Program-made: the position numbers and the translations under genes | Part shown: one piece after another, positions 1,187 through 19,897 of the stretch | Layout: every line of letters begins with the position of its first letter | How positions within the stretch are numbered: position 1 is the first letter of the stretch | Assembly (NCBI GenBank): GCA_002361155.1 | Contig: DERZ01000051.1 | Coordinates: forward strand, 492-41,999 | Length of the DNA: 41,508 bases | Direction: 5' to 3' | Source: Porphyromonadaceae bacterium UBA3327 | Lineage (GTDB): Bacteria > Bacteroidota > Bacteroidia > Bacteroidales > Muribaculaceae | The notes under the pieces: generated by a model | Database searches by the model: none | The model's input: only the letters and a program-made list of their open reading frames with translations | What the model was told of the DNA's origin: nothing

Positions 1187-3160
1187 TTACGGTGTGTCGG
1201 GATGGAAATGGGTGTGGACTATTTTTGCGCGGGATTTACCAACCACCGCTGCAATCTGCTCTATGTCAGCCTCTTTTAGTCTTTTAATACTTTTGAATGC
1301 TTTCATCAGGGCGGCCGCGGAGGTCTCCCCTATTCCTTTTATCGAATCCAATTCACTGACTGTCTGTGATTTACTACGACGGTCGCGATGATGGGTTATA
1401 CCGAACCGATGCGCTTCGTCACGCAGTGCCTGGATCACTCTGAGCGATGGAGATTTCTTGTCGAGGTATAGCGGAAGCGTATCACCGGGGAAATAAATTT
1501 CCTCAAGACGCTTGGCAATTCCCACCAGAGCCACATCTCCCCTGATACCCATCTCGTCGAATGCCTCCACGGCTGCGGAAAGCTGTCCCTTGCCGCCATC
1601 CACCACCACCAGCTGCGGGAGAGGCTGTCCTTCGGCCATCATCCGCGTATAGCGCCGGTGAAGCACCTCCTTCATCGAGGCGAAGTCATCTGCCCCTACC
1701 ACAGTCTTTATATTGAAATGCCTGTAGTCGCGCTTCGCCGGCTTGCCGTTGCGGAACACCACGCAACTCGCCACCGGATTCGTGCCCTGGATATTTGAAT
1801 TATCAAAACATTCGATGTGCCTCGGGAACTCTCTGAGCCGGAAATCGCTTTGCATCCGCTCCATAAGACGGTCGGTGGCTGCATCTGGATTAAGCTGCTC
1901 GACCTGCTTCTCGCGGTCACGCATATACTGCATGGCGTTTCTCATTCCCACCTCGAGACTCTTGCGTTTCGGCCCCCGGCGGGGCACTATGAAATCCACA
2001 CCTCCGAACTCCACATCCGGCTCAAACGGCACCACCACCTCCGAGAACTTTCTGCTGAACCTCTGTCCCACCTCGGCGATAGCCATGGAGAGAATCTCCT
2101 CTCGTGAGGTATCGTTGCGCTGCCGAACATACTCCAGATTCAGGCTTTGCGTGACCGCTCCGCGGTGCAGATGCATGAAATTGACAAACGCCCTGGAATC
2201 ATTCTCCACGTATGCGAACATATCGGTATCGGGCACGTCGGTCTCCCCTATGACACTTTTGGCATTGTAGCGCTTCACAATCTCATACTTCTCCTTGGCA
2301 TCCTGAGCCTCCTCGAATTTCCATTTTTCGGCAAGCGTATCCATCTCGTTTCGCAGATATCTTTCCAGCTCCACTGTCTCTCCGTTGAGAATCTGGCGCA
2401 CGCGTGAGATATAAACCCGATAATCCTCCGGATTGATCAGACCGCGGCACGCACCAGCGCATTTGCCGATATGATAGTCGAGACAGAGCGAATACTTGTT
2501 GCGGGCGATTCCTTTCTCGTCGAGCGCATGGCGACAGCTGCGCAGCGGGAAAGTTTCGCGGATAAGGTCGAGCACCACCTTTGCCGCCTGCGTATTGGAA
2601 TATGGCCCGTAATAGCGTGCCGCGAGACCTCGCTCACGCGTCATGAACACACGCGGATACAGTTCGTTGGTGACGACAATCCATGGATAAGATTTGTCAT
2701 CCTTAAGCAGAACGTTGTAATGCGGCTGATACTCCTTGATCATTGCGTTTTCAAGGTTGAGCGCATCCTCCTCGGTCGGCACCACAATAAACCGCATGTC
2801 GACAATATTGCGCACGAGGAGATTTGTTCTGACCGAATCATGCCGACGGTTGAAATAACTCGACACGCGGCGTTTCAATCGTTTCGCCTTGCCTACATAG
2901 ATCACCTTGCCATGCCGGTCGATATACATATACACACCCGGCGAATCGGGCAGGTTCAGGATTTTCTCGCGCAACTGGGAACCGGGACGATTGCCGGCTA
3001 TGTCATCGCGTGTCCGGTCGGAAGTGATCTCAATTCTGATACCTCCCTGCTCGTCGATATCGCGCCCTACTCCGGTCAGGTTCATACCCGCCTGAAAGTC
3101 AGTCTGACGGCCGGGAGAGTCAGATAGAAATGCATCCTTTTCTGGATTCTCGGTATTCAT
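1187..3160 (-). CDS. uvrC: Excinuclease ABC subunit C
   Basis: UvrC is the dual-incision nuclease of nucleotide excision repair, acting with UvrA and UvrB. In order it shows a GIY-YIG domain (LPDSPGVY at about residue 70, then IYVGKAK), a UVR motif with charged helices near residues 240-275, the UvrC RNase H-like endonuclease domain (ECFDNSNIQG, VVDGGKGQL) and a C-terminal helix-hairpin-helix pair (IKGIGETSAAALMKAF). From the ATG at 3160 it is 657 residues, longer than the usual ~605, because of a low-complexity stretch before the GIY-YIG domain. A TTG at 3232 and an ATG at 3085 are alternative starts. The promoter-like TAATTTTG at 3163-3170 argues against the TTG and leaves the ATG at 3085 possible. 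Confidence 0.95.
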   Translation of the reverse strand: MNTENPEKDAFLSDSPGRQTDFQAGMNLTGVGRDIDEQGGIRIEITSDRTRDDIAGNRPGSQLREKILNLPDSPGVYMYIDRHGKVIYVGKAKRLKRRVSSYFNRRHDSVRTNLLVRNIVDMRFIVVPTEEDALNLENAMIKEYQPHYNVLLKDDKSYPWIVVTNELYPRVFMTRERGLAARYYGPYSNTQAAKVVLDLIRETFPLRSCRHALDEKGIARNKYSLCLDYHIGKCAGACRGLINPEDYRVYISRVRQILNGETVELERYLRNEMDTLAEKWKFEEAQDAKEKYEIVKRYNAKSVIGETDVPDTDMFAYVENDSRAFVNFMHLHRGAVTQSLNLEYVRQRNDTSREEILSMAIAEVGQRFSRKFSEVVVPFEPDVEFGGVDFIVPRRGPKRKSLEVGMRNAMQYMRDREKQVEQLNPDAATDRLMERMQSDFRLREFPRHIECFDNSNIQGTNPVASCVVFRNGKPAKRDYRHFNIKTVVGADDFASMKEVLHRRYTRMMAEGQPLPQLVVVDGGKGQLSAAVEAFDEMGIRGDVALVGIAKRLEEIYFPGDTLPLYLDKKSPSLRVIQALRDEAHRFGITHHRDRRSKSQTVSELDSIKGIGETSAAALMKAFKSIKRLKEADIEQIAAVVGKSRAKIVHTHFHPDTP

Positions 3161-3162
3161 CG

Positions 3163-3170
3163 CAAAATTA
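3163..3170 (-). promoter_or_regulatory. Possible -7 box (TAATTTTG) for uvrC
   Basis: On the minus strand TAATTTTG fits the Bacteroides -7 consensus TAnnTTTG. A partial TTG lies about 22 nt upstream, so the -33 box is weak. The box sits only 2 nt before the ATG at 3160, so use of this promoter would give a near-leaderless transcript or a start further in. Confidence 0.35.
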
Positions 3171-3259
3171 CAGATAAACGAATTTATTCGCGCAATTCCA
3201 CATCCGGAGACTACATTACGGTACAGCTCCAATAATGATATTGCACATAATATAAAACG

Positions 3260-3303: not shown

Positions 3304-3339
3304 AGCGTCATACATCTGTACAGTTAAATGTACGACTCT
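3304..3339 (-). repeat. Imperfect stem-loop downstream of apt
   Basis: AGCGTCATACAT (3304-3315) and ATGTACGACTCT (3328-3339) pair with one G-U and one mismatch, around a CTGTACAG palindrome. The core TGTACGACTCT is also found in the palindrome at 1044-1087. It lies just before the stronger apt terminator, so it may be part of a double terminator. Confidence 0.4.
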
Positions 3340-3367
3340 TTTATAATACTCAATAAGTAAGTGCGAG

Positions 3368-3892
3368 TCAATACTTCAGCAGGGATGTCACCTCACAGTC
3401 TTCGGGAAGGACTTCGCGGCCATTCAACGCCGTGAGTTCAACGACAAAATTGACATATACTTTCTTCGGATTCATCGAACAGACAAGATCATAGCATGCA
3501 CGAATCGTCCCGCCGGTGGCGAGGAGGTCGTCGTGGATCAGAACAACGTCATTCTCATTGATGGCATCACTGTGGAGTTCTATGGTATCGACACCATATT
3601 CCTTGGCGTATGCCTTCTTGATGGTAACCGAGGGGAGTTTTCCCGGCTTACGTGCGGGCACGAATCCGCATCCGAGATTGTATGCCATTACAGAACCTCC
3701 GATGAAACCGCGAGATTCTATACCGACAACTTTTGTTATTCCCTTGTCTCTATAGAGATCTGTCAAGGCATCGCTCATCAGATGCAGAGCTTCCCCATCT
3801 TTAAGCAGAGTTGTAAGGTCCCGGAAAATGATACCCTTCGACGGAAAGTCGGGAATATCGCGGATTTTCAATCTCAAATCTTCAATTTCCAT
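3368..3892 (-). CDS. apt: Adenine phosphoribosyltransferase
   Basis: Apt converts adenine and PRPP to AMP in purine salvage in the cytoplasm. The 174-residue length is normal for the family. The PRPP-binding loop is seen at residues 116-129 (VVLIHDDLLATGGT), and the type I fold signature GIESRGFIGG is at about residues 57-66. The gene is downstream of mnmG on the same strand with a 148-nt gap that holds three inverted repeats, and is followed by a strong terminator. The order ybeY-mnmG-apt-uvrC fits what I know of Bacteroides chromosomes. No clear promoter is visible directly upstream. Confidence 0.96.
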   Translation of the reverse strand: MEIEDLRLKIRDIPDFPSKGIIFRDLTTLLKDGEALHLMSDALTDLYRDKGITKVVGIESRGFIGGSVMAYNLGCGFVPARKPGKLPSVTIKKAYAKEYGVDTIELHSDAINENDVVLIHDDLLATGGTIRACYDLVCSMNPKKVYVNFVVELTALNGREVLPEDCEVTSLLKY

Positions 3893-3941
3893 ATTATTCC
3901 TTTAAATTATAAAAATTATATCTTTGGACATCTCTCGATTT

Positions 3942-3966
3942 TTTTATCCGATTTCATCGGATAAAA
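3942..3966. repeat. 25-bp perfect inverted repeat upstream of apt
   Basis: TTTTATCCGAT (3942-3952), a 3-nt loop, then ATCGGATAAAA (3956-3966). It lies 50 nt upstream of apt. There is no T-run after it on the minus strand, so it is not a typical mnmG terminator. An operator or RNA stem is possible. A second inverted repeat, AGTGTCA (3970-3976) with TGACACT (3992-3998), lies next to it. Confidence 0.5.
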
Positions 3967-4017
3967 TCAAGTGTCAATTTCTGTATATTTGTGACACTGG
4001 CCCAAATAAAGCCAAAT

Positions 4018-4033
4018 TGTTCCACGTGGAACA
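4018..4033. promoter_or_regulatory. parS-like site (ParB/Spo0J binding palindrome)
   Basis: TGTTCCACGTGGAACA is a perfect 16-bp palindrome matching every fixed position of the chromosomal parS consensus TGTTnCACGTGnAACA, and is the form known from Pseudomonas. It lies 8 nt past the mnmG (gidA) stop, a gene often near oriC and parAB. I saw no second copy in this window. ParB binding is inferred from sequence. Confidence 0.75.
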
Positions 4034-4040
4034 CTCCACA

Positions 4041-5978
4041 TCAGCGACCAAGAATTATCAATAAAACATTGATATCCGACGGAGACACACCGGGGATTCT
4101 AGAAGCCTGCCCTATTGTTTCAGGCTGCACCCTGTCGAGCTTCTGCCTCGCTTCGGTAGAGATCGCAGAGACCGACATAAAGTCAAAACCGGATGGAATC
4201 TTCACATAATCCAGCCTCTGCTGCTTATCCGCATTTTCCTTCTCCCTCTTTATATATCCGTCATACTTTATCAGAATTTCTGCAGCCAGTATGATCTCCG
4301 CTCTCCGCTCCTCCTCTATCTCTTTCACTCGCACGCAAAGCGGCTGGAACACTTCCGCGAGAAGGGAAAAATCCACACCCGGACGACGTATGAGTTCCGC
4401 CACTTTAACCGACGCTGTCAGAGGTGCTGAATTCAGTGCGACCAATTTTTGATTAATCTCAGGAGTGGCCTTTACATTAGTCGTAGAGCACCATTCGATG
4501 AAGCTGTCGCGCTGTTCACGCTTTTCGAGCATCAGGCGATATCGGCGATCGGAAGCCAGACCGATTTCATATCCTATAGGGGTGAGTCGCATATCGGCGT
4601 CATCCTGACGCAGCAATATTCTGTACTCGGCCCTTGAAGTAAACATCCTGTATGGCTCATCCACCCCCTTGGTGACAAGGTCATCGATAAGCACTCCGAT
4701 ATATGCCTGGTCTCTACCCAGTACAATCGGATTCAGCCCCCGCGACTGTCTCGCAGCGTTGATTCCGGCCATCAGGCCTTGCGCCGCCGCCTCCTCATAT
4801 CCGGTGGTGCCGTTCACCTGACCGGCAAAATAAAGACCGCCCACAAGCTTGGTCTGGAGATCATGCGTCAGTTGCGTCGGGTCGAAGAAATCATATTCTA
4901 TGGCATAACCCGGACGATAGAACTGTACATTTTCAAGAGCGGGAATCTTGCCCAGCGCCTTTACCTGCACATCCCACGGCATCGAACTCGAGAATCCGTT
5001 TACGTAATATTCCTCGGTGGTCTCCCCTTCCGGCTCCAGAAAAAGCTGATGGCTATCCTTGTCGGCAAAGGTCACAAGCTTTGTCTCGATACTCGGACAG
5101 TACCTCGGACCGATGCTTTGAATCTGTCCGTTGTAAAGCGGAGATTCATCAAGGCGGGAAACCATCTCCGCATGGGCGGCAGGATTGGTATGCACTATCC
5201 AGCATGGACGGTTCTTCAAGGTTCTCCTCACTCCGGGTAGAAACGAAAATTTTTCATCCGGATTATCATCGCCCCATTGCACCTCTGCCTTTGAGAAGTC
5301 AATGGTTCTACCGTCGAGACGCGCCGGAGTGCCGGTCTTCATTCGGTCTGCACGGAATCCGATTCGTACCAATTGCTCGGTAATGCCCTTGGCGGCATCC
5401 TCCGAAATCCGTCCGCCCTCTACCTTGACTGAGCCGAAATGCATCAGTCCGTTAAGGAACGTACCCGCTGTAAGAATCACCTGCGAGGATCTGAATTCGA
5501 AACCCAGAGCAGTCCTTACTCCCCTTACAATCATGGATCTACGGTCCGTCTTATTTCCTTCCGGAAATTCTGTCGAGCCCTTGTCCGCAGATTCTATAAT
5601 GAGAGATGTCACACTGTCCTGAAATATGCTCAGCCCTTTAACCGAATCGAGAATCACCCTCCATTCATCAATATATCTGGAACGGTCAGACTGCACTCTC
5701 GGAGACCATACTGCAGGCCCTTTGGAGCGATTGAGCATTCTGAACTGGATAGCAGTTTTATCGGCCACAATTCCCATCATTCCACCGAGCGCGTCGATCT
5801 CGCGCACAATCTGCCCCTTGGCGATACCGCCTACAGCAGGATTGCATGACATCTGTGCCACACGGTTCATATCTTTGGTAATCAGCAAGGTAGATGCTCC
5901 AAGGCGTGCTGACGCCACCGCGGCCTCACAGCCCGCATGTCCGGCACCTATTACTATGACATCGAAATCGAACTGCAT
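4041..5978 (-). CDS. mnmG: tRNA uridine-5-carboxymethylaminomethyl(34) synthesis enzyme MnmG
   Basis: MnmG (GidA) works with the GTPase MnmE to install the (carboxymethyl)aminomethyl group at C5 of wobble uridine 34 in tRNAs, using FAD and a folate donor. The FAD dinucleotide-binding motif is at the start (VIVIGAGHAGCEAA, residues 8-21). The conserved CNPAVGGIAKG, GTFLNGLMHFG and AAAQGLMAGINAA stretches follow, and the helical MnmE-binding C-terminus ends the protein. At 645 residues it is slightly longer than the usual ~625. It starts 45 nt after ybeY on the same strand, so the two are probably co-transcribed. A parS-like palindrome follows its stop codon. Confidence 0.97.
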   Translation of the reverse strand: MQFDFDVIVIGAGHAGCEAAVASARLGASTLLITKDMNRVAQMSCNPAVGGIAKGQIVREIDALGGMMGIVADKTAIQFRMLNRSKGPAVWSPRVQSDRSRYIDEWRVILDSVKGLSIFQDSVTSLIIESADKGSTEFPEGNKTDRRSMIVRGVRTALGFEFRSSQVILTAGTFLNGLMHFGSVKVEGGRISEDAAKGITEQLVRIGFRADRMKTGTPARLDGRTIDFSKAEVQWGDDNPDEKFSFLPGVRRTLKNRPCWIVHTNPAAHAEMVSRLDESPLYNGQIQSIGPRYCPSIETKLVTFADKDSHQLFLEPEGETTEEYYVNGFSSSMPWDVQVKALGKIPALENVQFYRPGYAIEYDFFDPTQLTHDLQTKLVGGLYFAGQVNGTTGYEEAAAQGLMAGINAARQSRGLNPIVLGRDQAYIGVLIDDLVTKGVDEPYRMFTSRAEYRILLRQDDADMRLTPIGYEIGLASDRRYRLMLEKREQRDSFIEWCSTTNVKATPEINQKLVALNSAPLTASVKVAELIRRPGVDFSLLAEVFQPLCVRVKEIEEERRAEIILAAEILIKYDGYIKREKENADKQQRLDYVKIPSGFDFMSVSAISTEARQKLDRVQPETIGQASRIPGVSPSDINVLLIILGR

Positions 5979-9560: not shown

Positions 9561-9584
9561 CGAATAAATTCAATTTTGACAAGA

Positions 9585-10493
9585 ATGGAGGGGGAGACCT
9601 ATCATATACCGGCATTGTTGCCGGAGGCCATCAATGGATTAAACATCAGGGAAGCGGGAGTTTACGTGGACGCTACATTCGGTGGCGGCGGTCACTCCGC
9701 GGCGATTCTCGCCGCGCTTGGAAGCGAGGGACGACTGTTCGGGTTCGACCGCGACACCGACGCGCTCGCCAATGCACCTGCCGACTCCCGATTTACATTT
9801 GTACATTCCAACTTCCGTTATATCTCTAATTTCATGAGATACCACGGCGTAGAGCATGTCGACGGCATTCTGGCCGACCTGGGAGTGTCCTTCCATCATT
9901 TCGACACGGCCGACCGAGGTTTCTCATTCCGCAGCGACGCACCCCTTGACATGCGCATGAACCGCAACGGCGGCAAGACTGCGGCCGACATCCTCGCCGA
10001 TTACCCTGAGGAGGAACTGTCCCGGCTGTTCCGTACCTACACCGACCTGAAAAATCCACGCGCGCTGACCTCCGCAATCGTCAGGGCACGTGCCGAGGCA
10101 CCGGTCGACACCACGTTCCGGCTCGTCGAGGCCGCCCGCAAAGCCATCTCGCCCCAAAGGGAGAAAAAAGACCTCGCCCAGGTGTTCCAGGCTCTCCGCA
10201 TCGAAGTCAACGACGAGATGGGAGCACTCAAGGCTCTCCTCGGGCAGGCCGCCGAAGTACTGCGTCCCGGCGGCAGACTCGCAGTGATCACATATCATTC
10301 GATCGAAGACCGCATGGTTAAAAACTTCATCCGCAGCGGAAATGTCGAAGGAATTGTGGACAAGGATTTCTACGGAAGGGTCTCGACTCCCTGGAAACAG
10401 GTGAACCGATCCCCTCTCGTTCCATCCGAAGAAGAAGTAGAACGGAATCCGAGAGCGCGTAGCGCCAAACTGCGCGTCGCGGAACTTTTGTGA
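9585..10493 (+). CDS. rsmH: 16S rRNA (cytosine(1402)-N(4))-methyltransferase RsmH
   Basis: RsmH (MraW) methylates N4 of C1402 in the decoding centre of 16S rRNA using SAM. From the ATG at 9585 the protein is 302 residues, normal for the family. The HIPALLPEA opening and the SAM-binding DATFGGGGHS (residues 29-38) are diagnostic, as are the LADLGVSFHHFD and ITYHSIEDRMVK stretches. A TTG three codons earlier is an alternative start. It is the first true dcw gene here and is followed after 5 nt by the FtsL-like gene. mraZ, which usually precedes it, is absent. Confidence 0.96.
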   Translation: MEGETYHIPALLPEAINGLNIREAGVYVDATFGGGGHSAAILAALGSEGRLFGFDRDTDALANAPADSRFTFVHSNFRYISNFMRYHGVEHVDGILADLGVSFHHFDTADRGFSFRSDAPLDMRMNRNGGKTAADILADYPEEELSRLFRTYTDLKNPRALTSAIVRARAEAPVDTTFRLVEAARKAISPQREKKDLAQVFQALRIEVNDEMGALKALLGQAAEVLRPGGRLAVITYHSIEDRMVKNFIRSGNVEGIVDKDFYGRVSTPWKQVNRSPLVPSEEEVERNPRARSAKLRVAELL

Positions 10494-10498
10494 CTGCA

Positions 10499-10864
10499 AT
10501 GGCGAACAAAAAAAGTAAACAAGATAACGACAAGAAAAACAACAGGCATAATTTCTCATGGGTCGAGGAACTCCGTGCCGGACGCTCCATCTCGATAGAA
10601 TTCTTCAAGAAAAACGCCTGGCTGCTGCTGTTGATAACAGTGGCAGTCATCGCCATGATCGGTCTTCGGTATGAGACAAAGACAAAGATGTCTAAAATAA
10701 AATCACTCACCACCGAACTGCAGAGAGCCGAAAGCCGCAAGCTGCAGGAGAAATCCCTCTACATGTCGCTCATCCGAGAAACCGAGATGAAGAGACTGGT
10801 TCATGAAAAAGGACTCGCGCTTGAATTTCAGGAGCAGCCTCCATACGAAATCACCGACAACTGA
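10499..10864 (+). CDS. FtsL-like cell division protein
   Basis: This 121-residue single-pass membrane protein has a basic cytoplasmic N-terminus (residues 1-40, rich in Lys and Asn), a transmembrane helix at about residues 41-59 (AWLLLLITVAVIAMIGL) and an extracytoplasmic coiled coil (KMSKIKSLTTELQRAESRK). This is the FtsL topology, and its place between rsmH and ftsI is the position of ftsL in dcw clusters. FtsL helps bridge early and late divisome proteins and activates FtsW-FtsI. Sequence identity is low across phyla, so the name rests on topology and position. Confidence 0.85.
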   Translation: MANKKSKQDNDKKNNRHNFSWVEELRAGRSISIEFFKKNAWLLLLITVAVIAMIGLRYETKTKMSKIKSLTTELQRAESRKLQEKSLYMSLIRETEMKRLVHEKGLALEFQEQPPYEITDN

Positions 10865-10912
10865 ACGCAAACCCCACCGACGACAAAAGCGACAAATTCA
10901 TAACAACCGGCT

Positions 10913-13045
10913 ATGGCAGGAAACAACAAACGACATATTCTGATACGATACGGAGTGATTACCGTGCTGTTCGTGTTTTTCGGCATCATCGTGCTCGGAA
11001 AGCTGTTCAGTACCACGGTGATTGAGGCATCGGACTGGAACCGCCGTGCCAAAGAGGAGCTGTCGCGCGTAGACACCATCGCGCCCGAACGCGGCAACAT
11101 CCTCGCTGACAACGGCAACATCCTCGCATGCAACCTCAAGGTCTACGACATCAAGATCGACCTGCGCCACGAGAAGGTGAATTCCCACATACGCAAGAAC
11201 CGCGGCATTCCATGGAACAAAATAGACTCACTGGCCGACTCCCTCGACACATACTATCCGCGCGTCAAAGATCTGCGCCAGCATCCCGACACATTCCGGA
11301 AATACTCATGGCACGCGAAACTCAAGAAGGAATTCGAGAAGCAGCCCGAGCGGCGCAACCGCGCCCTCCGTCTGGCCCGCAACAAGACACTCGAGGACTT
11401 CGAGCGCATAAAGGGATTCCCCTATCTCAAGGATTTCAACGGACGCGGCACTCGCAATCCCCTTTACTGTCAGAACCGCAACGTCCGCATCTACCCATAC
11501 GGCAAAATGGCCTACCGCAGCATAGGCCGTGTCAACGAGAACCAGAAGACGCGCGAGATCCACGGATATTCCGGCCTGGAAATGGCGCTCGACTCGCTTC
11601 TCTACGGCAAGCCGGGCCTCGCCAAGCGCGTGGCCATGACCAGCGGAATATCCAACTGGGTGACCACCCCGCCCCGACGGGGATACGACATCCATACTAC
11701 CATCAACATCGATCTTCAGGAAATGCTTGAGGATGAGCTCCAGAAAGTCTGCGAAGAGGCCGATGCCGAATGGGGCACCGCCGTGCTCATGGAGGTGGCC
11801 TCGGGCGAAATCAAGGCTATATCCAACATCGAGTTGCTCGACGACGGCTCCTACGGCGAGGCGCTCAACCGCGCGGTCCTCCCCTTCGAGCCCGGTTCGG
11901 TGATGAAACCGATATCGCTCATGATCGCCTTCGAGGACAAGCTCGTAAAATCGGTCAACGACATGGTGGACTGCTCCCCTTTCCAACGCACCAACGACCC
12001 CCACGGGAGCGGACCGAAAAACATGAAGCAGGTGATAGAGCAGTCATCCAACCCCGGCATAGCCAGAGTGATATTCAGAGGATACGCCCAGGACCCTGAA
12101 AAATGGTGGGAGCGTCTCGCGGGGCTCGGTTTCTTCGAGCCTATGCACACAGGTATCGCCGGCGAATGCACCCCGCGCATCAAGCGCCTCACTCCTACCG
12201 ACTCCCGGGGAAACAACATCACCATGACGGCGCGCCATCTCGACCTTGCCCGCCAGGCATACGGCTACAATACAGAGCTCCCTCCCCTCTTCACGCTCTC
12301 GGTCTACAACGCCATCGCCAACAACGGCGTGTATGTCCGGCCGCATCTGGTGAAGAGCCTTATCGATGAAGACGGAAGGGACTCCGTGCTGCATGTGCGC
12401 AACATCCGCGACAGCATCTGCTCGCCGCGCACCGCCCGAATGGTAAGGGAATGCATCCGCGAAGTAGTCTGGGGAGAGCACGGTACAGCGCGCCTCGTGC
12501 GCGATGACCGCGTGGAAATAGCCGGCAAGACAGGAACCGCCTATCCCGTGGAACACGGGGTATACAACCATGCCAAGCGCCGTTATGCCTTTGCGGGATT
12601 CTTTCCCTACGAGAACCCGCAGTACAGCTGTATAGTCCTTGTGCTCGGCAAAGCCGGCAGCTCCGCCAACCGCACCTCTGGTCAGGTACTGAAAAACATG
12701 GCCATCAAAATGTATTCGCGCGGTATGCTCCGCAACGTATCGACCTATACAGCTGCTAAATCCAGCTCACGACCGGTGCTCGCGGCCTCCACCGCCACCA
12801 GCCACTCCGAAGTGGCCAAGGCGATAGGCGCATCCTCCGTGCGCCGCGCCAAGACGGTCACTCCGGGCGCGGCAGATACCGTTCCCTCAGTGATCGGATA
12901 CGACGCCCCCTCGGCCCTCAGGATCCTCGAACAGCGCGGCCTCAACGTGAGAATATCCGGCACCGGACACGTGGTGGGCCAGTCGCTGCCACCCGGCACC
13001 CCACTGAAAAAAGGTGAAACCATCATCCTGAGACTCCGGATATGA
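10913..13045 (+). CDS. ftsI: Septal peptidoglycan transpeptidase (class B PBP) with PASTA domain
   Basis: This is the divisome transpeptidase that cross-links septal peptidoglycan with FtsW. The 710 residues contain a membrane anchor at about 10-32, a PBP dimerisation/pedestal region with a charged insert near residues 90-175, and the transpeptidase domain. Active-site motifs are all present: SVMK with Ser329, SSN at 378-380 and KTGT at 539-542. A C-terminal PASTA domain spans about 655-710 (VPSVIGYDAPSA to the end). The sequence between them (about 605-650) is Ser/Ala-rich and probably a linker. It lies in order between the FtsL-like gene and murE. Confidence 0.95.
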   Translation: MAGNNKRHILIRYGVITVLFVFFGIIVLGKLFSTTVIEASDWNRRAKEELSRVDTIAPERGNILADNGNILACNLKVYDIKIDLRHEKVNSHIRKNRGIPWNKIDSLADSLDTYYPRVKDLRQHPDTFRKYSWHAKLKKEFEKQPERRNRALRLARNKTLEDFERIKGFPYLKDFNGRGTRNPLYCQNRNVRIYPYGKMAYRSIGRVNENQKTREIHGYSGLEMALDSLLYGKPGLAKRVAMTSGISNWVTTPPRRGYDIHTTINIDLQEMLEDELQKVCEEADAEWGTAVLMEVASGEIKAISNIELLDDGSYGEALNRAVLPFEPGSVMKPISLMIAFEDKLVKSVNDMVDCSPFQRTNDPHGSGPKNMKQVIEQSSNPGIARVIFRGYAQDPEKWWERLAGLGFFEPMHTGIAGECTPRIKRLTPTDSRGNNITMTARHLDLARQAYGYNTELPPLFTLSVYNAIANNGVYVRPHLVKSLIDEDGRDSVLHVRNIRDSICSPRTARMVRECIREVVWGEHGTARLVRDDRVEIAGKTGTAYPVEHGVYNHAKRRYAFAGFFPYENPQYSCIVLVLGKAGSSANRTSGQVLKNMAIKMYSRGMLRNVSTYTAAKSSSRPVLAASTATSHSEVAKAIGASSVRRAKTVTPGAADTVPSVIGYDAPSALRILEQRGLNVRISGTGHVVGQSLPPGTPLKKGETIILRLRI

Positions 13046-13128
13046 CTCGCTGAGGCTCAGGATATGACCGCGCCACCCGGACATGATTTTGAATCTGAAA
13101 ATTCCAACGACTATAAAATATCTGAAAT

Positions 13129-14589
13129 ATGACAATCAAACTTTCCCGCCTTCTTGAAGAGATCAAGCCCCTCGAAGTAATCGGAGAGACCGACAAAAAT
13201 ATCGAAAGCCTCCAGAGCGACTCCAGAAAAGTCGGCAAGGGAGGAATGTTTGTGGCAGTCCGCGGTGTCACCACCGACGGACACCGCTATATTCCGGTAG
13301 TGGCGAGCACTCATGTTGCCGCCATAGTCTGCGAGGACCTTCCGGCATCCATAGAGAAAGGAATCACCTATATCCGCGTGGCGGACAGCGCGGAGGCCCT
13401 GGGTCGCCTCGCCTCGGCCTGGTACGGACACCCCTCGTCGCAACTTCGGCTCGTGGGCGTGACAGGCACCAACGGCAAGACCACCACCGCCACCCTACTC
13501 TACGAGATGGCAAAACTCGAGGGCTACAAGGCCGGCCTTTTGTCGACGGTGTGCAACTATATCCAGGACCGTGCCATACCGACCACACACACCACCCCCG
13601 ACCCTCTTACCCTCAACGAGCTTCTTTCCGAAATGGTGGCGGCCGGCTGCGACTATGCCTTCATGGAAGTTTCGAGCCATGCAGCCCAACAGCGCCGCAT
13701 AGCGGGACTGAAATTTGCCGGCGGCGTATTCTCCAATCTCACCCGGGACCACCTCGACTACCATCACACGGTGGATAATTACCGCAACGCCAAGAAAATG
13801 TTCTTCGACACCCTTCCGGAGGACGCATTCGCCCTTGTGAACACCGATGACAAGGCGGGACTCTACATGACCCAGAACACGCGCGCCAAAGTCCACGCAT
13901 ATTCGTTGCGTGCCGATGCCGATTTCCGCTGCAAGATACTTGAGACACGCCTTGACGGCACACTGCTGATGCTGAACGGCCGCGAAGTGGAGGTGAATTT
14001 CACCGGGCGTTTCAACGCCTACAACCTCACGGCGGTCTACGGCGCGAGTCTCCTGATCGGCTGGCCACGCGAGGAGGTGGAAGTGAACATGAGCAGACTT
14101 GTGCCCGTAGCGGGCCGCTTCCAGACATTCCGGTCTGAGAAAGGCGTGACGGCGATTGTGGACTATGCCCACACCCCCGACGCGCTTGTCAACGTGCTCG
14201 ACACCATCCGCGAGGTGGTGGGCAACGACGGCGAGATAACCACCGTGGTGGGAGCCGGCGGCAACCGCGACCACGGCAAGCGCCCGATCATGGCGCGCGA
14301 GGCCGCATGCCGCAGCGACCGTCTCATCCTCACCAGCGACAACCCGCGCGACGAGGAGCCCTCGGCTATCATCGACGAGATGAAGGAGGGACTTTCCGCC
14401 GAGGAGATGCGCCGCACCCTCTGCATCACCGACCGCCGCGAGGCCATCCGTACCGCAATCATGATGGCGCGTCCCGGCTCCGTAGTGCTCGTTGCCGGAA
14501 AGGGACATGAGCCTTATCAGGAGGTGAAGGGAGTGCGCCACCATTTCGATGACCGCGAAGAGGTGCAGGAGGCACTTGCACAGCTATGA
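13129..14589 (+). CDS. murE: UDP-MurNAc-L-Ala-D-Glu:meso-diaminopimelate ligase MurE
   Basis: MurE adds the third amino acid to the UDP-MurNAc-dipeptide in the cytoplasm using ATP. It has 486 residues with the three Mur-ligase domains. The ATP-binding loop GTNGKTT is at residues 113-119 and the C-terminal DNPR motif at residues 404-407. DNPR is the signature for meso-diaminopimelate rather than lysine, so this organism should have DAP-type peptidoglycan. It starts 83 nt after ftsI and its stop overlaps the mraY start (ATGA). Confidence 0.96.
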
Positions 14590-15857
14590 TCTACTGGCTA
14601 TACGAACAATTCGGTTCCGGGTGGGATTTCCCCGGAAAACACCTGCTGGGATACATCTCCTTCCGGGCCGGGCTCACTTTCGCAATCTCGCTGCTGATCG
14701 CCCTGGTGTTCGGACAGAGAATCATCCGGCGACTGCAGCGGATGCAGGTCGGTGAAGAGGTTCGCAATCTCGGGCTTGAGGGCCAGATGCAGAAAAAAGG
14801 CACCCCCACCATGGGAGGCGTCATCATCATCATCTCCATTCTCCTGCCGCTGTTGCTCATAGGTAACCTCCGCAACATCTACCTGTTGCTGATGATTGTA
14901 GCCACGATATGGATGGGATGTATCGGATTTCTCGACGACTACCGCAAGCTCAAATACCACAACAAGGACGGCCTGAAAGGAAAATACAAAGTTATCGGAC
15001 AGGTAGGACTCGGACTGGTGGTGGGAATTACCATGTGGCTCTCCCCTTCCATAGTCATGAGCGAAAACACCGAGGTGATGCGCGGGCCTGACCACAGCAC
15101 GGAGATAGTGATGTCGAACGAACAGATAAAGTCGCCGCAGACCACCATCCCGTTCGTGAAGAACAACAACTTCAATTATCAGTGGCTCACTTCATGGGTC
15201 GACAACGCACAGGCGGCCGAGACACTCGGCTGGCTCGCGTTCGTGCTCGTGGTGATCATCGTGGTGGCGGCCGTGAGCAACGGTGCCAACCTCACAGACG
15301 GACTCGACGGACTCTGCGCCGGAACGTCGGCTATTATCGGAATAGCCCTCCTCATAATGGCATATTTAGGAGGAAACGTGATATACTCGAGTTATCTCAA
15401 CATCATGTATATCCCTGGTTCCGAAGAGATGGTGGTCTACGCATCGGCTTTCATCGGGGCGCTGGTCGGTTTTCTGTGGTACAATGCTTTCCCTGCGCAG
15501 GTATTCATGGGCGACACCGGCAGCCTCACGCTCGGCGGCATTCTGGCGGTATTCGCCATCCTTATCCGCAAGGAGCTGCTGATTCCTCTGCTCTGCCTGG
15601 TATTCTTCCTCGAGGACCTCTCGGTGATGATGCAGGTGGCATACTTCAAATACACTAAAAAACGCTTCGGCGAGGGGCGCCGCATATTCAAGATGACACC
15701 CCTCCACCATCACTTCCAGAAAGCGGCGGTACCCGGAGCCAACGTAAAATGGAATTTTCCGGTCAATCCCATTCCGGAGTCCAAGATTGTGGTGCGTTTC
15801 TGGATTGTCAGCATCCTGCTGGCCGCGCTCACATTCGTGACGCTGAAGATAAGATGA
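14586..15857 (+). CDS. mraY: Phospho-MurNAc-pentapeptide transferase MraY
   Basis: MraY transfers phospho-MurNAc-pentapeptide to undecaprenyl phosphate, making lipid I in the cytoplasmic membrane. Key motifs are the catalytic Asp pair D117-D118 (FLDDYRKLK), NLTDGLDGL (residues 235-243) and HHHF near residue 375. At 423 residues it is longer than the ~360 of E. coli. The extra length is a hydrophilic extracytoplasmic segment at about residues 155-205, as in other Bacteroidetes. The start overlaps the murE stop. Confidence 0.96.
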
Positions 15858-15889
15858 TCTGACCGACATAAAAACATCGACATAGAAAG

Positions 15890-17260
15890 ATGAACGAGAA
15901 GAAAGAGATACTGACAGTGCTCGGAGGGGGCGAAAGCGGCGTTGGAGCGGCCGTCCTCGGCAAGACCAAGGGAATGCAGGTGTTTCTAAGCGATATGGGA
16001 GACATCAGCGACCATTACCGCGAAATACTCGACTCCGAAGGAATCGAATACGAGACCGGACACCACACAGAGGAGCGTATCCTCGAAGCCGATGTAGTGG
16101 TGAAAAGCCCCGGAATACCGCCCTGCTCCCCTATTGTCCGTAAAATCATGGATAAAGGGATTCCCGTCATTTCCGAAATTGAGTTCGCAGCGCGATACAC
16201 CGACGCAAAAATGGTGTGCATCACGGGGAGCAACGGCAAAACCACCACTACCCTGCTTACCTACCACATCCTCAAGGAGGCAGGGCTGAATGTGGGACTC
16301 GCCGGCAACGTGGGACGCAGCCTCGCCTATCAGGTGGCACGCGCCGACCATGATTACTATGTGATAGAACTCTCCAGCTTCCAGCTCGAGAACATGTATG
16401 ATTTCAAGGCCGACATCGCCGTCATAATGAACATCACCCCGGATCATCTGGACCGCTACGACAACAAGATGGAGAACTATGCGGCGGCAAAATTCCGCAT
16501 TCTCCGGAACCAGACCGGTGATGACTGGTTCATTTACTGGAAAGACGACCCCGTGATAAAGCAACAGCTGGAGCAGATCCAGACCGAGGCCATGCAACTT
16601 CCTTTCAGCGAATTACAGGAAGATGGCAACGCGGCATACGTAGACGACGGCATCGTGAGATTCGTGACTCCGCGCGAAGTCTGGGACATACCGCGCGACA
16701 GACTCGCCCTTCCGGGCCTCCACAACCTCTACAACTCCATGGCCGCCGGCCTCTCCGCATCCATCCTCAACATCCGCAAGGAGGATATCCGCCATGCCCT
16801 CGAGAACTTCGAGGCAGTGGAGCACCGCCTCGAATACGTCGACACCATCGCCGGAGTCCGCTATGTCAACGACTCCAAGGCCACCAACGTCAACTCCACC
16901 TGGTATGCTCTTGAAAGCATGACCGGACCCACCGTGCTGATCCTCGGCGGCAAGGACAAAGGAAATGATTATACCGAAATCGAGCCGCTCGTCCGCAAGA
17001 AGGTGAAGGCTGTCGTATGCATGGGCAAGGATAACGCCAAGCTGATTGACTTTTTTTCAGGGAAAGTGCCTGAAATCCGCGATACCCATTCAATATCAGA
17101 AGCCATGGAGGCCTGCGCCATGCTCGCCTCCGACGGCGACACCGTCCTGTTGTCGCCCTGCTGCGCCAGCTTCGACCTCTTCTCAAGTTACGAGGACCGC
17201 GGCCGTCAGTTCAAGCAGCAGGTGAGAATACTCCGCGACCGCACCATCGGAAAAGACTGA
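15890..17260 (+). CDS. murD: UDP-MurNAc-L-alanine:D-glutamate ligase MurD
   Basis: MurD adds D-Glu to UDP-MurNAc-L-Ala. The 456-residue protein has an N-terminal UDP-binding Rossmann fold (VLGGGESGVGAAVL), the ATP loop GSNGKTTT at residues 113-120, ELSSFQLE and NITPDHLDRY in the central domain, and NDSKATN and LLSPCCASFD in the C-terminal domain. All are standard for MurD. It lies 32 nt after mraY, and the N-terminal extension of ftsW begins 11 nt after its stop. Confidence 0.96.
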   Translation: MNEKKEILTVLGGGESGVGAAVLGKTKGMQVFLSDMGDISDHYREILDSEGIEYETGHHTEERILEADVVVKSPGIPPCSPIVRKIMDKGIPVISEIEFAARYTDAKMVCITGSNGKTTTTLLTYHILKEAGLNVGLAGNVGRSLAYQVARADHDYYVIELSSFQLENMYDFKADIAVIMNITPDHLDRYDNKMENYAAAKFRILRNQTGDDWFIYWKDDPVIKQQLEQIQTEAMQLPFSELQEDGNAAYVDDGIVRFVTPREVWDIPRDRLALPGLHNLYNSMAAGLSASILNIRKEDIRHALENFEAVEHRLEYVDTIAGVRYVNDSKATNVNSTWYALESMTGPTVLILGGKDKGNDYTEIEPLVRKKVKAVVCMGKDNAKLIDFFSGKVPEIRDTHSISEAMEACAMLASDGDTVLLSPCCASFDLFSSYEDRGRQFKQQVRILRDRTIGKD

Positions 17261-17271
17261 AACAATTGCCA

Positions 17272-18750
17272 ATGAAGGAAAACGATATCCTCGAAAGAAT
17301 AGAAATCCGGGAGACCGTCGACGGGAGACCTGTCGACGGAGACGCCGGTTCCCGCCGGAGCACATCGTCCTCATCCGCAGCAACCACTGCATCCTCTCCG
17401 GCAGCATCCGGCGCCCGCAAGATGAGCACCAAATCAATGCGCCGCGCGAGCCGCCCTGACCCATACATCTGGGGAATCTACATCATGCTGCTTCTCATAA
17501 GCGTGGTGGAACTCTTCAGTGCCTCCAGCACCGAAGTTCACGGCGACAATGTCTACATGCCCCTCATCCGCCATGTCATATTCCTTGGAATAGGCCTCGG
17601 AATAGTGCTCTGGCTACAGAGAACCCCATACATGGTAATCAACAGGTTCGCATGGGTCTTCGCGCTATTCTCGCTGGGACTGGTTCTGCTGTCGACACTC
17701 TTCGGAGAGAGCATCAACGGAGCCCAGCGCGCCATCAGGGTGGCCGGCGTCACCATCCAGCCCGCGGAAATCGCCAAACTCGCCGTGGTCTGTCTGCTCG
17801 CCTACATCTACGGCAAGACGCAGACTCCCGGCGGTGTCAGCAACAAGGGCGTCGTGACATCGGCCGTGGTCGTGCTGGTGTTTGCCGCATGCCTTGTGAC
17901 CAATGGACTGACCAATACGCTTCTGCTTATGGTGGTGAGCATCTGCATGATGCTCATCGGAGGAATCCAGTGGAAGAAATTCGGAATGGTAATGCTGGCG
18001 TACGGTCTTGCAGTGGTGCTTCTGATGGGATTTAAGGAAATAGCCCCGAGCACGGCCGACTTCGACAATGTAGAGCCTATGCAGACTGCCATGGTAGCCT
18101 CTGCAGCAAACGGAGCCATATCCCCGGTACAGACCGGGATCGAAGCCGAGACTTCCGGGGGAAATCTGAAACGAAGCGGAACCTGGAAAGAACGTATCAA
18201 CCGGTTTATAGCCGGAGTCAACCCGGATGACCCGATCACCGACGAGAACCGGCAGGTGGTTTTCGCCAAATTCGCGCAGGCCAACGGCGGAATGGTGGGA
18301 CAGGGCCCCGGCAATTCCCGGGAAAGCGCGAGACTTCCTCTCGCATTTTCCGACTACATCTATTCCATCATCGTCGAGGACACCGGCTTCATCGGAGGGG
18401 CACTCGTGCTTTTGCTCTATCTTCTCCTTGTGGCGCGGGCCGGACGCATAGCCTACATGTGCTCGCGGGCCTTCCCGGCATTCCTCATCATGGGATGCGC
18501 TGTCATGATTGTCTTCCAGGCCCTTGTCCACATGGCGATTGTCACCGGAGTCTTCCCGGTATCGGGACAGCCGCTGCCATTCATCTCGAAAGGAGGAACA
18601 TCGGTGATAGTAATGTCGGCGGCGCTCGGCATCATGCTTTCCGTCAGCCGGTTCGCGGCACATTCCGGCAACAAGAAGGAAATCAGCGCCGAAATGAACG
18701 CGCTGCCCGACGACATGCAGGCCGCCAACTATTCAGCAGACCAACAATAG
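17272..18750 (+). CDS. ftsW: Septal peptidoglycan glycosyltransferase FtsW
   Basis: FtsW is the SEDS-family polymerase that makes septal glycan strands with FtsI. From the ATG at 17272 the protein is 492 residues. A disordered, Ser/Ala-rich cytoplasmic extension of about 65 residues precedes the first membrane helix (WGIYIMLLLISVVELFSASS). The SEDS signature NGAQRAI and the C-terminal PLPFISKGGTS motif are present. A hydrophilic loop near residues 265-330 matches the large extracytoplasmic loop of SEDS proteins. A downstream ATG (MSTKSM) could give a shorter N-terminus. Confidence 0.95.
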   Translation: MKENDILERIEIRETVDGRPVDGDAGSRRSTSSSSAATTASSPAASGARKMSTKSMRRASRPDPYIWGIYIMLLLISVVELFSASSTEVHGDNVYMPLIRHVIFLGIGLGIVLWLQRTPYMVINRFAWVFALFSLGLVLLSTLFGESINGAQRAIRVAGVTIQPAEIAKLAVVCLLAYIYGKTQTPGGVSNKGVVTSAVVVLVFAACLVTNGLTNTLLLMVVSICMMLIGGIQWKKFGMVMLAYGLAVVLLMGFKEIAPSTADFDNVEPMQTAMVASAANGAISPVQTGIEAETSGGNLKRSGTWKERINRFIAGVNPDDPITDENRQVVFAKFAQANGGMVGQGPGNSRESARLPLAFSDYIYSIIVEDTGFIGGALVLLLYLLLVARAGRIAYMCSRAFPAFLIMGCAVMIVFQALVHMAIVTGVFPVSGQPLPFISKGGTSVIVMSAALGIMLSVSRFAAHSGNKKEISAEMNALPDDMQAANYSADQQ

Positions 18751-18790
18751 CCCGGTCCGTCACATCGGACCGGTCATCAGCCAAGCAGCA

Positions 18791-19897
18791 ATGGAAAAAA
18801 GAAAATACAGAATACTGATAAGCGGAGGGGGAACCGGAGGACACATCTTTCCGGCCCTCTCGATAGCCGGAGCACTTAAGAGCCGCCTTGAAGCGGAGAT
18901 TCTCTTTGTGGGAGCCGAGGACAGGATGGAGATGGAACGGGTGCCGGCGGCGGGCTACGAGATAAAAGGCCTTCCGGTGGCAGGATTTGACCGCAGACGT
19001 ATATGGCGCAATGCAGGGGTTCTTCTCAAGCTCCGCAAAAGCCTGTCGATGGCCCGCGCCATAGTAAAGGATTTCAAGCCCGACATAGCCATAGGGGTGG
19101 GAGGCTACTGCTCCGGGCCGACGCTCAAGGCCGCGCAGCGGGCCGGTGTCCCCACACTCATCCAGGAACAGAATTCTTATGCCGGAGTCACCAACAAACT
19201 GCTTGCGGAGAAAGCCGACCGAATCTGCGTGGCCTACGACGGTATGGAGCGATTTTTCCCAGCCGACAAAATCGTGAAGACCGGCAACCCGGTGCGGACA
19301 AGTCTCACCGACAAAAGCCGCGACCGCAACGCCGCCATCGAGAGTTTCGGACTGAATCCCGACAAACCGACATTGCTCGTTGTCGGCGGAAGCCTCGGCG
19401 CGCTTACCATCAATGAGAGCTTCGAGGGGGGACTGGAAAAAATACTCAATGCCGGATTTCAGCTCATCTGGCAGACAGGCAAGAACTTCGGTGACCGCGG
19501 ACCATGCGCGGCAAAAGGAAAGAGGGGAGTTGTGGTGACACCTTTCATCACCGACATGGCCTCGGCATACGCAGCAGCCGACCTTGTGGTGTCGAGGGCA
19601 GGCGCAGGCTCCATCAGCGAACTCGAACTGCTCGGCAAGCCCTGCATCCTTGTGCCGTCGCCCAACGTGGCCGAAGATCACCAGACCAAAAACGCCCGCG
19701 CCCTTTCGGATGTCGGAGCCGCCGTTCTGATTACCGATGCCGACGCCCGCGGCTCGCTGGTGGACACCGCCGTGCGAACCATGGCCGACAGGCGGACTCT
19801 GGAATCCATGAGTTCCGCAATCTCCCGTCTCGCCCTCCGCGAGTCCGACCAGCGGATTGTGGACGAAGTTATTAAAATTTTAGACAGACGAAAATAA
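18791..19897 (+). CDS. murG: Lipid II synthase MurG
   Basis: MurG adds GlcNAc from UDP-GlcNAc to lipid I to make lipid II at the inner face of the membrane. The 368-residue GT-B protein has the G-loop SGGGTGGH at residues 11-18, GGYCSGP and QEQNSYAGVTNK in the acceptor half, and the donor-binding VVSRAGAGSISEL and PSPNVAEDHQ stretches in the C-terminal half. It lies 40 nt after ftsW and 1 nt before murC, so translation is probably coupled. Confidence 0.96.
   Translation: MEKRKYRILISGGGTGGHIFPALSIAGALKSRLEAEILFVGAEDRMEMERVPAAGYEIKGLPVAGFDRRRIWRNAGVLLKLRKSLSMARAIVKDFKPDIAIGVGGYCSGPTLKAAQRAGVPTLIQEQNSYAGVTNKLLAEKADRICVAYDGMERFFPADKIVKTGNPVRTSLTDKSRDRNAAIESFGLNPDKPTLLVVGGSLGALTINESFEGGLEKILNAGFQLIWQTGKNFGDRGPCAAKGKRGVVVTPFITDMASAYAAADLVVSRAGAGSISELELLGKPCILVPSPNVAEDHQTKNARALSDVGAAVLITDADARGSLVDTAVRTMADRRTLESMSSAISRLALRESDQRIVDEVIKILDRRK

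Follow-up and report, generated by a model that had tools for sequence, protein, structure and literature searches.

Genomic context of the palindrome

The window, that is, the whole 41.5-kb stretch of DNA analyzed here, carries a short palindrome between the genes mnmG and apt. The relevant features are as follows.

1187 to 3232, negative strand: uvrC (TIGR00194, above the cut-off)
3368 to 3892, negative strand: apt, adenine phosphoribosyltransferase, the next gene downstream of the site (NF002636 and TIGR01090, both above the cut-off)
4018 to 4033, strandless and palindromic: putative parS site TGTTCCACGTGGAACA (exact pattern match, kept beside mnmG in relatives)
4041 to 5978, negative strand: mnmG, also called gidA (TIGR00136, 787 bits, above the cut-off; Pfam GIDA and C-terminal domains)

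The palindrome comprises 16 bases, is perfect, and matches the pattern TGTTNCACGTGNAACA with 0 mismatches, all 14 fixed bases being present. Within the window it is the only match at up to 3 mismatches, and shuffles averaged 1.04. The preliminary description of this DNA had reported a palindrome that agrees with all fixed bases of the motif, and this was borne out at positions 4018 to 4033. It had also placed the site 8 nt past the mnmG stop; the site does lie directly after mnmG, but since the gene ends at 4041, the gap spans positions 4034 to 4040 and measures 7 nt. Positions 3900 to 4045 had no match in a plasmid collection. A search of the window for DnaA boxes yielded 10 matches at up to 1 mismatch, compared with 6.8 expected, and no exact one; with a count this close to expectation and no exact box, the window holds no convincing oriC.

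Elsewhere in the window, a run of division and cell wall genes extends from 9576 to 19897, starting about 5.5 kb from the palindrome, and encodes RsmH, two Mur ligases, MraY-like and MurG-like transferases, and a protein of the FtsW/RodA family. By eye, we also noted a perfect inverted repeat, AAGAGAGTCGTACATTTGTACGACTCTCTT, at 1051 to 1080 after a LysO-like gene, as well as a stretch at approximately 3307 to 3342 between uvrC and apt that contains TGTACGACTCTT and partly resembles this repeat.

Copy number in the MAG

The MAG comprises 1.68 Mb in 64 contigs and is 79.7% complete. The preliminary description had proposed a scan of the full genome for the motif, with evenly spread copies speaking against parS; a chromosomal parS is expected in few, clustered copies. 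Our scan of the MAG found 1 perfect copy and no copy with 1 mismatch, and hence a single copy within 1 mismatch, plus 1 copy with 2 mismatches. As the reversed pattern, used as a control, produced 10 matches at up to 2 mismatches compared with 2 for the motif itself, the isolated 2-mismatch site elsewhere in the MAG carries no weight. By arithmetic, 14 fixed bases are expected about 0.006 times per 1.68 Mb, and the exact reversed pattern occurred in none of the 101 genomes of our genus and order set and in 1 of the 75 genomes of our phylum set. Copy numbers were similarly low in the genus, with 1 or 2 exact copies in each of the 55 genomes that carry the motif. Because the MAG is incomplete and split into 64 contigs, the genome may harbor further parS sites.

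A chromosomal-type ParB

The absence of a parB gene from the genome had been named in the preliminary description as evidence against a parS; the gene is present. One ParB match was found in the MAG, on contig C55 (TIGR00180, 188.8 bits; cut-off, 58.45), and none in the window. The protein contains the domains ParB_N, HTH_ParB, and ParB_C, and its gene is preceded, at a distance of 5 nt, by a ParA-type AAA_31 open reading frame, a fragment cut by the contig end. The alignment with the solved ParB structure 6t1f, presumably of Caulobacter, covers residues 4 to 250 of 286. At two positions that we take to be specificity residues distinguishing ParB from Noc, the C55 protein agrees with 6t1f (Arg and Gly) and differs from the Noc rows (Gln and Arg). 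Two further positions, presumably belonging to the same specificity set, are occupied by His and Arg, compared with Thr and Ala in 6t1f. The profile score, the domains, the ParA-type fragment directly upstream, and the Arg and Gly residues mark the protein as a chromosomal-type ParB. A Noc binding site, for which we assume the consensus ATTTCCCGGGAAAT, was rejected as an identity of the palindrome, since the core of the site is CACGTG and the ParB does not have the Noc-type Gln and Arg.

Conservation of the site beside mnmG

Across the genus, the exact motif was found in 55 of 61 genomes (our own and 60 others): one copy in 49, two copies in 6, and none in the remaining 6. Five of these 6 motif-less genomes have no mnmG match, and the sixth (G044, corresponding to locus L301) has mnmG followed within about 340 bp by five 1-mismatch copies, each with one outer-base change. 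In all 44 genus genomes among the matches listed, an exact site lies within 300 bp of mnmG, and every copy in these genomes is either within 300 bp of mnmG or inside it. The loci of the other 11 motif-carrying genomes were fetched, and each has an exact site 26 to 122 bp past the end of the mnmG profile match. All 55 exact-motif genomes of the genus thus carry the motif beside mnmG. An extra site within mnmG was seen in G055 and G057, and in G008 and G036 another exact copy lies outside the 1.5-kb mnmG flanks that were fetched.

At the level of the order, 27 of 40 relatives contain the exact motif and 13 do not. Among the matches listed, which represent 19 of these 27 genomes, each of the 19 has a site no more than 300 bp from the mnmG match, and two extra sites occur elsewhere.

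We further analyzed 80 mnmG-anchored loci, the best 80 of at least 583 confirmed loci, taken from named records and mostly from Bacteroidales. In the first 300 nt past the mnmG stop, an exact site is present in 64 of the 80 loci and one with up to 1 mismatch in 78; the median distance from the stop is 8 nt in the 64 loci with an exact site. At up to 2 mismatches, there were 87 matches in the 24 kb that make up the 300 nt after mnmG versus 19 in 328 kb elsewhere, a background composed of the mnmG bodies and the flank beyond 600 nt, with the zone from 300 to 600 nt excluded; several of the 19 are second sites 0.6 to 1.3 kb past mnmG. The exceptions among the 80 loci are L096, which is siteless, and L097, which has its sites elsewhere in the locus. 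In the aligned loci, the flanks carry little information past the first 2 to 3 bases next to the site. Since the sites were chosen by motif and the flanks were not, the conservation of the core is partly a product of this construction. It should be noted that some of the 80 loci may come from the genus or order genomes (L046 and G041 possibly being such a pair), so that the counts for the genus, the order, and the 80 loci should not be treated as independent of one another.

Small local clusters were observed as well: besides the near site, an exact parS motif lies 1,170 nt (L042), 1,102 nt (L052), 1,063 nt (L081), 1,206 nt (L040), 613 nt (L111), and 600 nt (L106) after the mnmG stop, and the near site of L040 has 1 mismatch. 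In the survey that gave these distances, the stop codon of mnmG was left unassigned for L003, L014, and L015, and L021 is without mnmG.

The phylum sample consisted of 75 genomes, our own and 74 others drawn at a completeness of at least 97%. mnmG was found in all 75 and the exact site in 57, leaving 18 without the exact motif. At up to 2 mismatches, a site lies within 300 bp of the mnmG match in 67 of the 75 genomes, on its 5′ side, its 3′ side, or both. Among the matches listed, which represent 47 of the 57 exact-site genomes, 44 of 47 are within this distance; of the 10 others, whose loci were fetched, 5 have an exact site within 300 bp and G158 qualifies through 1-mismatch sites. Seventeen of the 18 genomes without the exact motif have sites with 1 or 2 mismatches within 300 bp of mnmG, and the mismatches fall mostly on the outermost bases, the outer T/A being relaxed. 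In G130 and G138, the sites are 504 and 356 bp from mnmG, respectively. No site was found near mnmG in 6 of the 75 genomes: G122, G142, and G145 lack one with up to 2 mismatches over a distance of 1.5 kb, and G133, G172, and G180 have no exact site near mnmG, only exact sites having been scored there. In 40 fetched loci, no site at up to 2 mismatches was found inside mnmG or more than 600 bp away from it. Sites flank mnmG on both sides in 14 of the 47 listed genomes, nine of which belong to one family (f56). In G160, G171, G144, G140, and G132, mnmG is bracketed by two exact sites located 12 to 23 bp outside the gene match, and the same bracketing was seen in G152, G156, G164, and G179 of the same family.

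Collectively, the presence of parB in the genome, the single copy found, and the strongly conserved position beside mnmG support well the parS identity that the preliminary description had proposed. The palindrome is almost certainly the parS centromere site of this chromosome.

Position relative to the replication origin and dnaA

In the MAG, dnaA lies on a different contig (C8) than the parS site. In the genus-mate G027, both are on one contig, approximately 80 kb apart, and in other closed genomes dnaA is near mnmG, at about 7 kb in G160 and G171. The five relatives sampled for GC skew have dnaA 0.37 to 1.19 Mb from parS.

Parabacteroides gordonii was chosen for its 4.48-Mb contig, on which the parS site next to mnmG lies at 2.250 Mb and dnaA at 1.064 Mb; a second exact copy of the site occurs at 2.580 Mb. 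In thirty sampled 20-kb stretches, the skew stayed below zero for the most part between 0.7 and 2.3 Mb and turned positive at about 2.28 to 2.35 Mb, 30 to 100 kb from parS; one later stretch, at 3.06 Mb, was negative again. The second exact site is common to two Parabacteroides genomes (G101:C1:2579852 and G102:C11:221883), has A/T at the free positions, and lies about 330 and 307 kb, respectively, from the site at mnmG.

Four single-contig genomes (G165, G114, G151, and G173) were picked from 18 for their distant dnaA (0.37 to 1.02 Mb); other genomes with a distant dnaA, such as G116, are outside this sample. For each, we fitted a two-switch model with arms of 35 to 65% to twenty 20-kb stretches, spaced at a sampling step of 108 to 170 kb. 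In the order given above, parS was 7, 25, 3, and 0.2 kb away from the near end of the best origin interval and 167, 185, 97, and 100 kb from its far end; parS was inside the interval in two of the four genomes and just outside it in the other two. An origin placed exactly at parS scored 1.21, 0.58, 0.67, and 0.98. Placing it at dnaA was far worse in three genomes (0.39 versus a best score of 1.40, −0.13 versus 0.70, and 0.18 versus 0.67) and only somewhat worse in G173 (0.82 versus 0.98). The sampled skew therefore supports an origin nearer to parS than to dnaA in all five relatives. Within the genus, the skew was too noisy to be relied upon (7 stretches of a 460-kb contig of G010), and one or two stretches from G058 and G075 carried no skew information.

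The preliminary description had expected mnmG to lie near oriC and parAB. The first part agrees with the skew origin near mnmG and parS in five relatives; the second does not hold for the MAG, whose only ParB match is on C55. Its further suggestion, that this segment is part of the ParB-loaded region and possibly close to the origin, is favored in its second part by the same five relatives; by extension from them, the parS region of this fragmented MAG probably lies toward the origin.

Alternative explanations

The palindrome could be a true parS in a region that is not near the origin in this organism, its link to mnmG reflecting inherited synteny only. This is an unlikely reading. Its argument is the gene order. 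Of the 80 loci, 74 had 1.5 kb or more of flank and 6 were too short; among the 74, tblastn located both apt and uvrC after mnmG in 58, uvrC only in 12, and neither in 4 (uvrC in 70 of 74 in total), which indicates that the neighborhood itself is conserved. Synteny alone fits poorly with a site that is kept in 78 of 80 loci although the flanks are uninformative past 2 to 3 bases, with sites that, across the phylum, are found before mnmG, after it, or at both of its ends, and with a skew switch near parS in five relatives.

It is very unlikely that the palindrome acts mainly as an RNA hairpin or intrinsic terminator of mnmG. A consensus scan for terminators did flag it on the mnmG strand (1 found, compared with a mean of 0.3 and a standard deviation of 0.5 in shuffles), but the hairpin was absent from both the minimum-energy and the centroid folds (z = −1.45). 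Moreover, in 68 exact sites read in the mnmG sense, positions 5 and 12 are T-G in 24, C-A in 20, C-G in 19, and T-A in 5. C-A breaks an RNA pair and is yet about as common as the wobble pair T-G, as would fit a strand-symmetric DNA site. Over 78 loci, A is more frequent than any other base at 21 of the 22 positions from 20 to 41, counting from the first base of the site, and with such A-rich 3′ flanks a T tract is not a general feature; many members of the phylum even have the site 5′ of mnmG. An intrinsic terminator as the main function was rejected on the basis of the 20 C-A cases among 68 sites, the A-rich 3′ flanks, and the missing predicted hairpin.

The probability that the palindrome is a random match or serves some other regulator of the CACGTG type is negligible. 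Nothing speaks for this reading except that binding sites are commonly palindromes, and the position is linked to a single gene, with one copy in 49 of 61 genus genomes. The small number of copies expected per genome, the reversed-pattern control, and the mnmG-linked position across the genus and the 80 loci rule out a chance match.

The explanation that we hold with high confidence is that this Bacteroidales bacterium has its chromosomal parS, probably a single one, at the palindrome, where ParB would load near the origin.

Comparison with known systems

The consensus of chromosomal parS sites is TGTTTCACGTGAAACA (Livny et al. 2007, as cited in PMC10197239). The system described here resembles chromosomal ParABS in having the same 14 fixed bases, a ParB of the same family encoded behind a ParA gene, an origin-side location in the relatives sampled, and few copies per genome. 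It differs in that neither parB nor dnaA shares a contig with the site, which is tethered to mnmG and often the sole exact copy; moreover, no canonical SMC was detected, and the outer T/A is relaxed in several genomes.

As regards SMC, the SMC_prok_B cut-off was passed in none of 41 genomes (our own and 40 relatives), at most 12 candidates being scored per genome, and in 10 of 14 controls; weak matches were taken as coiled-coil or ATPase background. With no canonical SMC detected, the known role of parS in SMC loading may not apply here. This result agrees with PMC10197239, according to whose portions on condensin neither Muribaculum intestinale nor Bacteroides caecimuris has a known condensin homologue.

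According to the portions of PMC10197239 on parS and the origin, ParABS homologues occur in 12 of 12 gut species, with 1 to 10 parS sites each that are mostly clustered, and the origin is not always at dnaA. The parS sites of M. intestinale and B. caecimuris in its Hi-C work are comparable to ours in that both species are of the same phylum and the sites were assigned by consensus at up to 2 mismatches; its system is also alike in the origin that is not always at dnaA and in the lack of a known condensin in those two species. As set out in these portions, the location of parS at the origin is partly circular, because the skew shift nearer to the parS cluster was called the origin; coverage reportedly supports these origin calls. 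mnmG is unmentioned in the portions of PMC10197239 on parS, the origin, and condensin. In the part of PMC2099444 considered here, gidA (mnmG) is among the genes discussed, in line with its place near the skew origin in our five relatives; unlike there, dnaA is 0.37 to 1.19 Mb from the mnmG-parS locus in those five. We found no description of an mnmG-linked parS in Bacteroidota in the open-access literature, a scope that does not include the Livny 2007 survey.

Proposed role and significance

By analogy with ParABS systems in general, a ParB dimer would read the two half-sites of parS, close with CTP into a sliding clamp, and spread from parS across the mnmG region. ParA, whose gene lies immediately upstream of parB, would then move the ParB-DNA complexes apart after replication, and the origin-side region would be segregated first. 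The binding and spreading of ParB at this site and its part in segregation are thus predicted from the general mechanism.

parS as a kind of site is known; a phylum-wide tether to mnmG that persists with a distant dnaA is something that we did not find in print. We lean toward the view that the tether of parS to mnmG dates back to the ancestor of the Bacteroidota and that parS marks the origin there, while dnaA has moved by as much as about 1 Mb; that mnmG-parS is accordingly the reliable origin marker in genomes and MAGs of this phylum; and that ParABS operates without a canonical SMC condensin in those lineages in which none was found.

The function of parS is established in a few model bacteria, and we found little literature on it in gut Bacteroidales. 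If our view is true, a fixed mnmG-parS landmark would help to place the origin in fragmented MAGs, where dnaA can mislead, and would be useful for estimating replication rates from coverage. The locus would also offer a single site at which to study ParB in bacteria without a detected canonical SMC.
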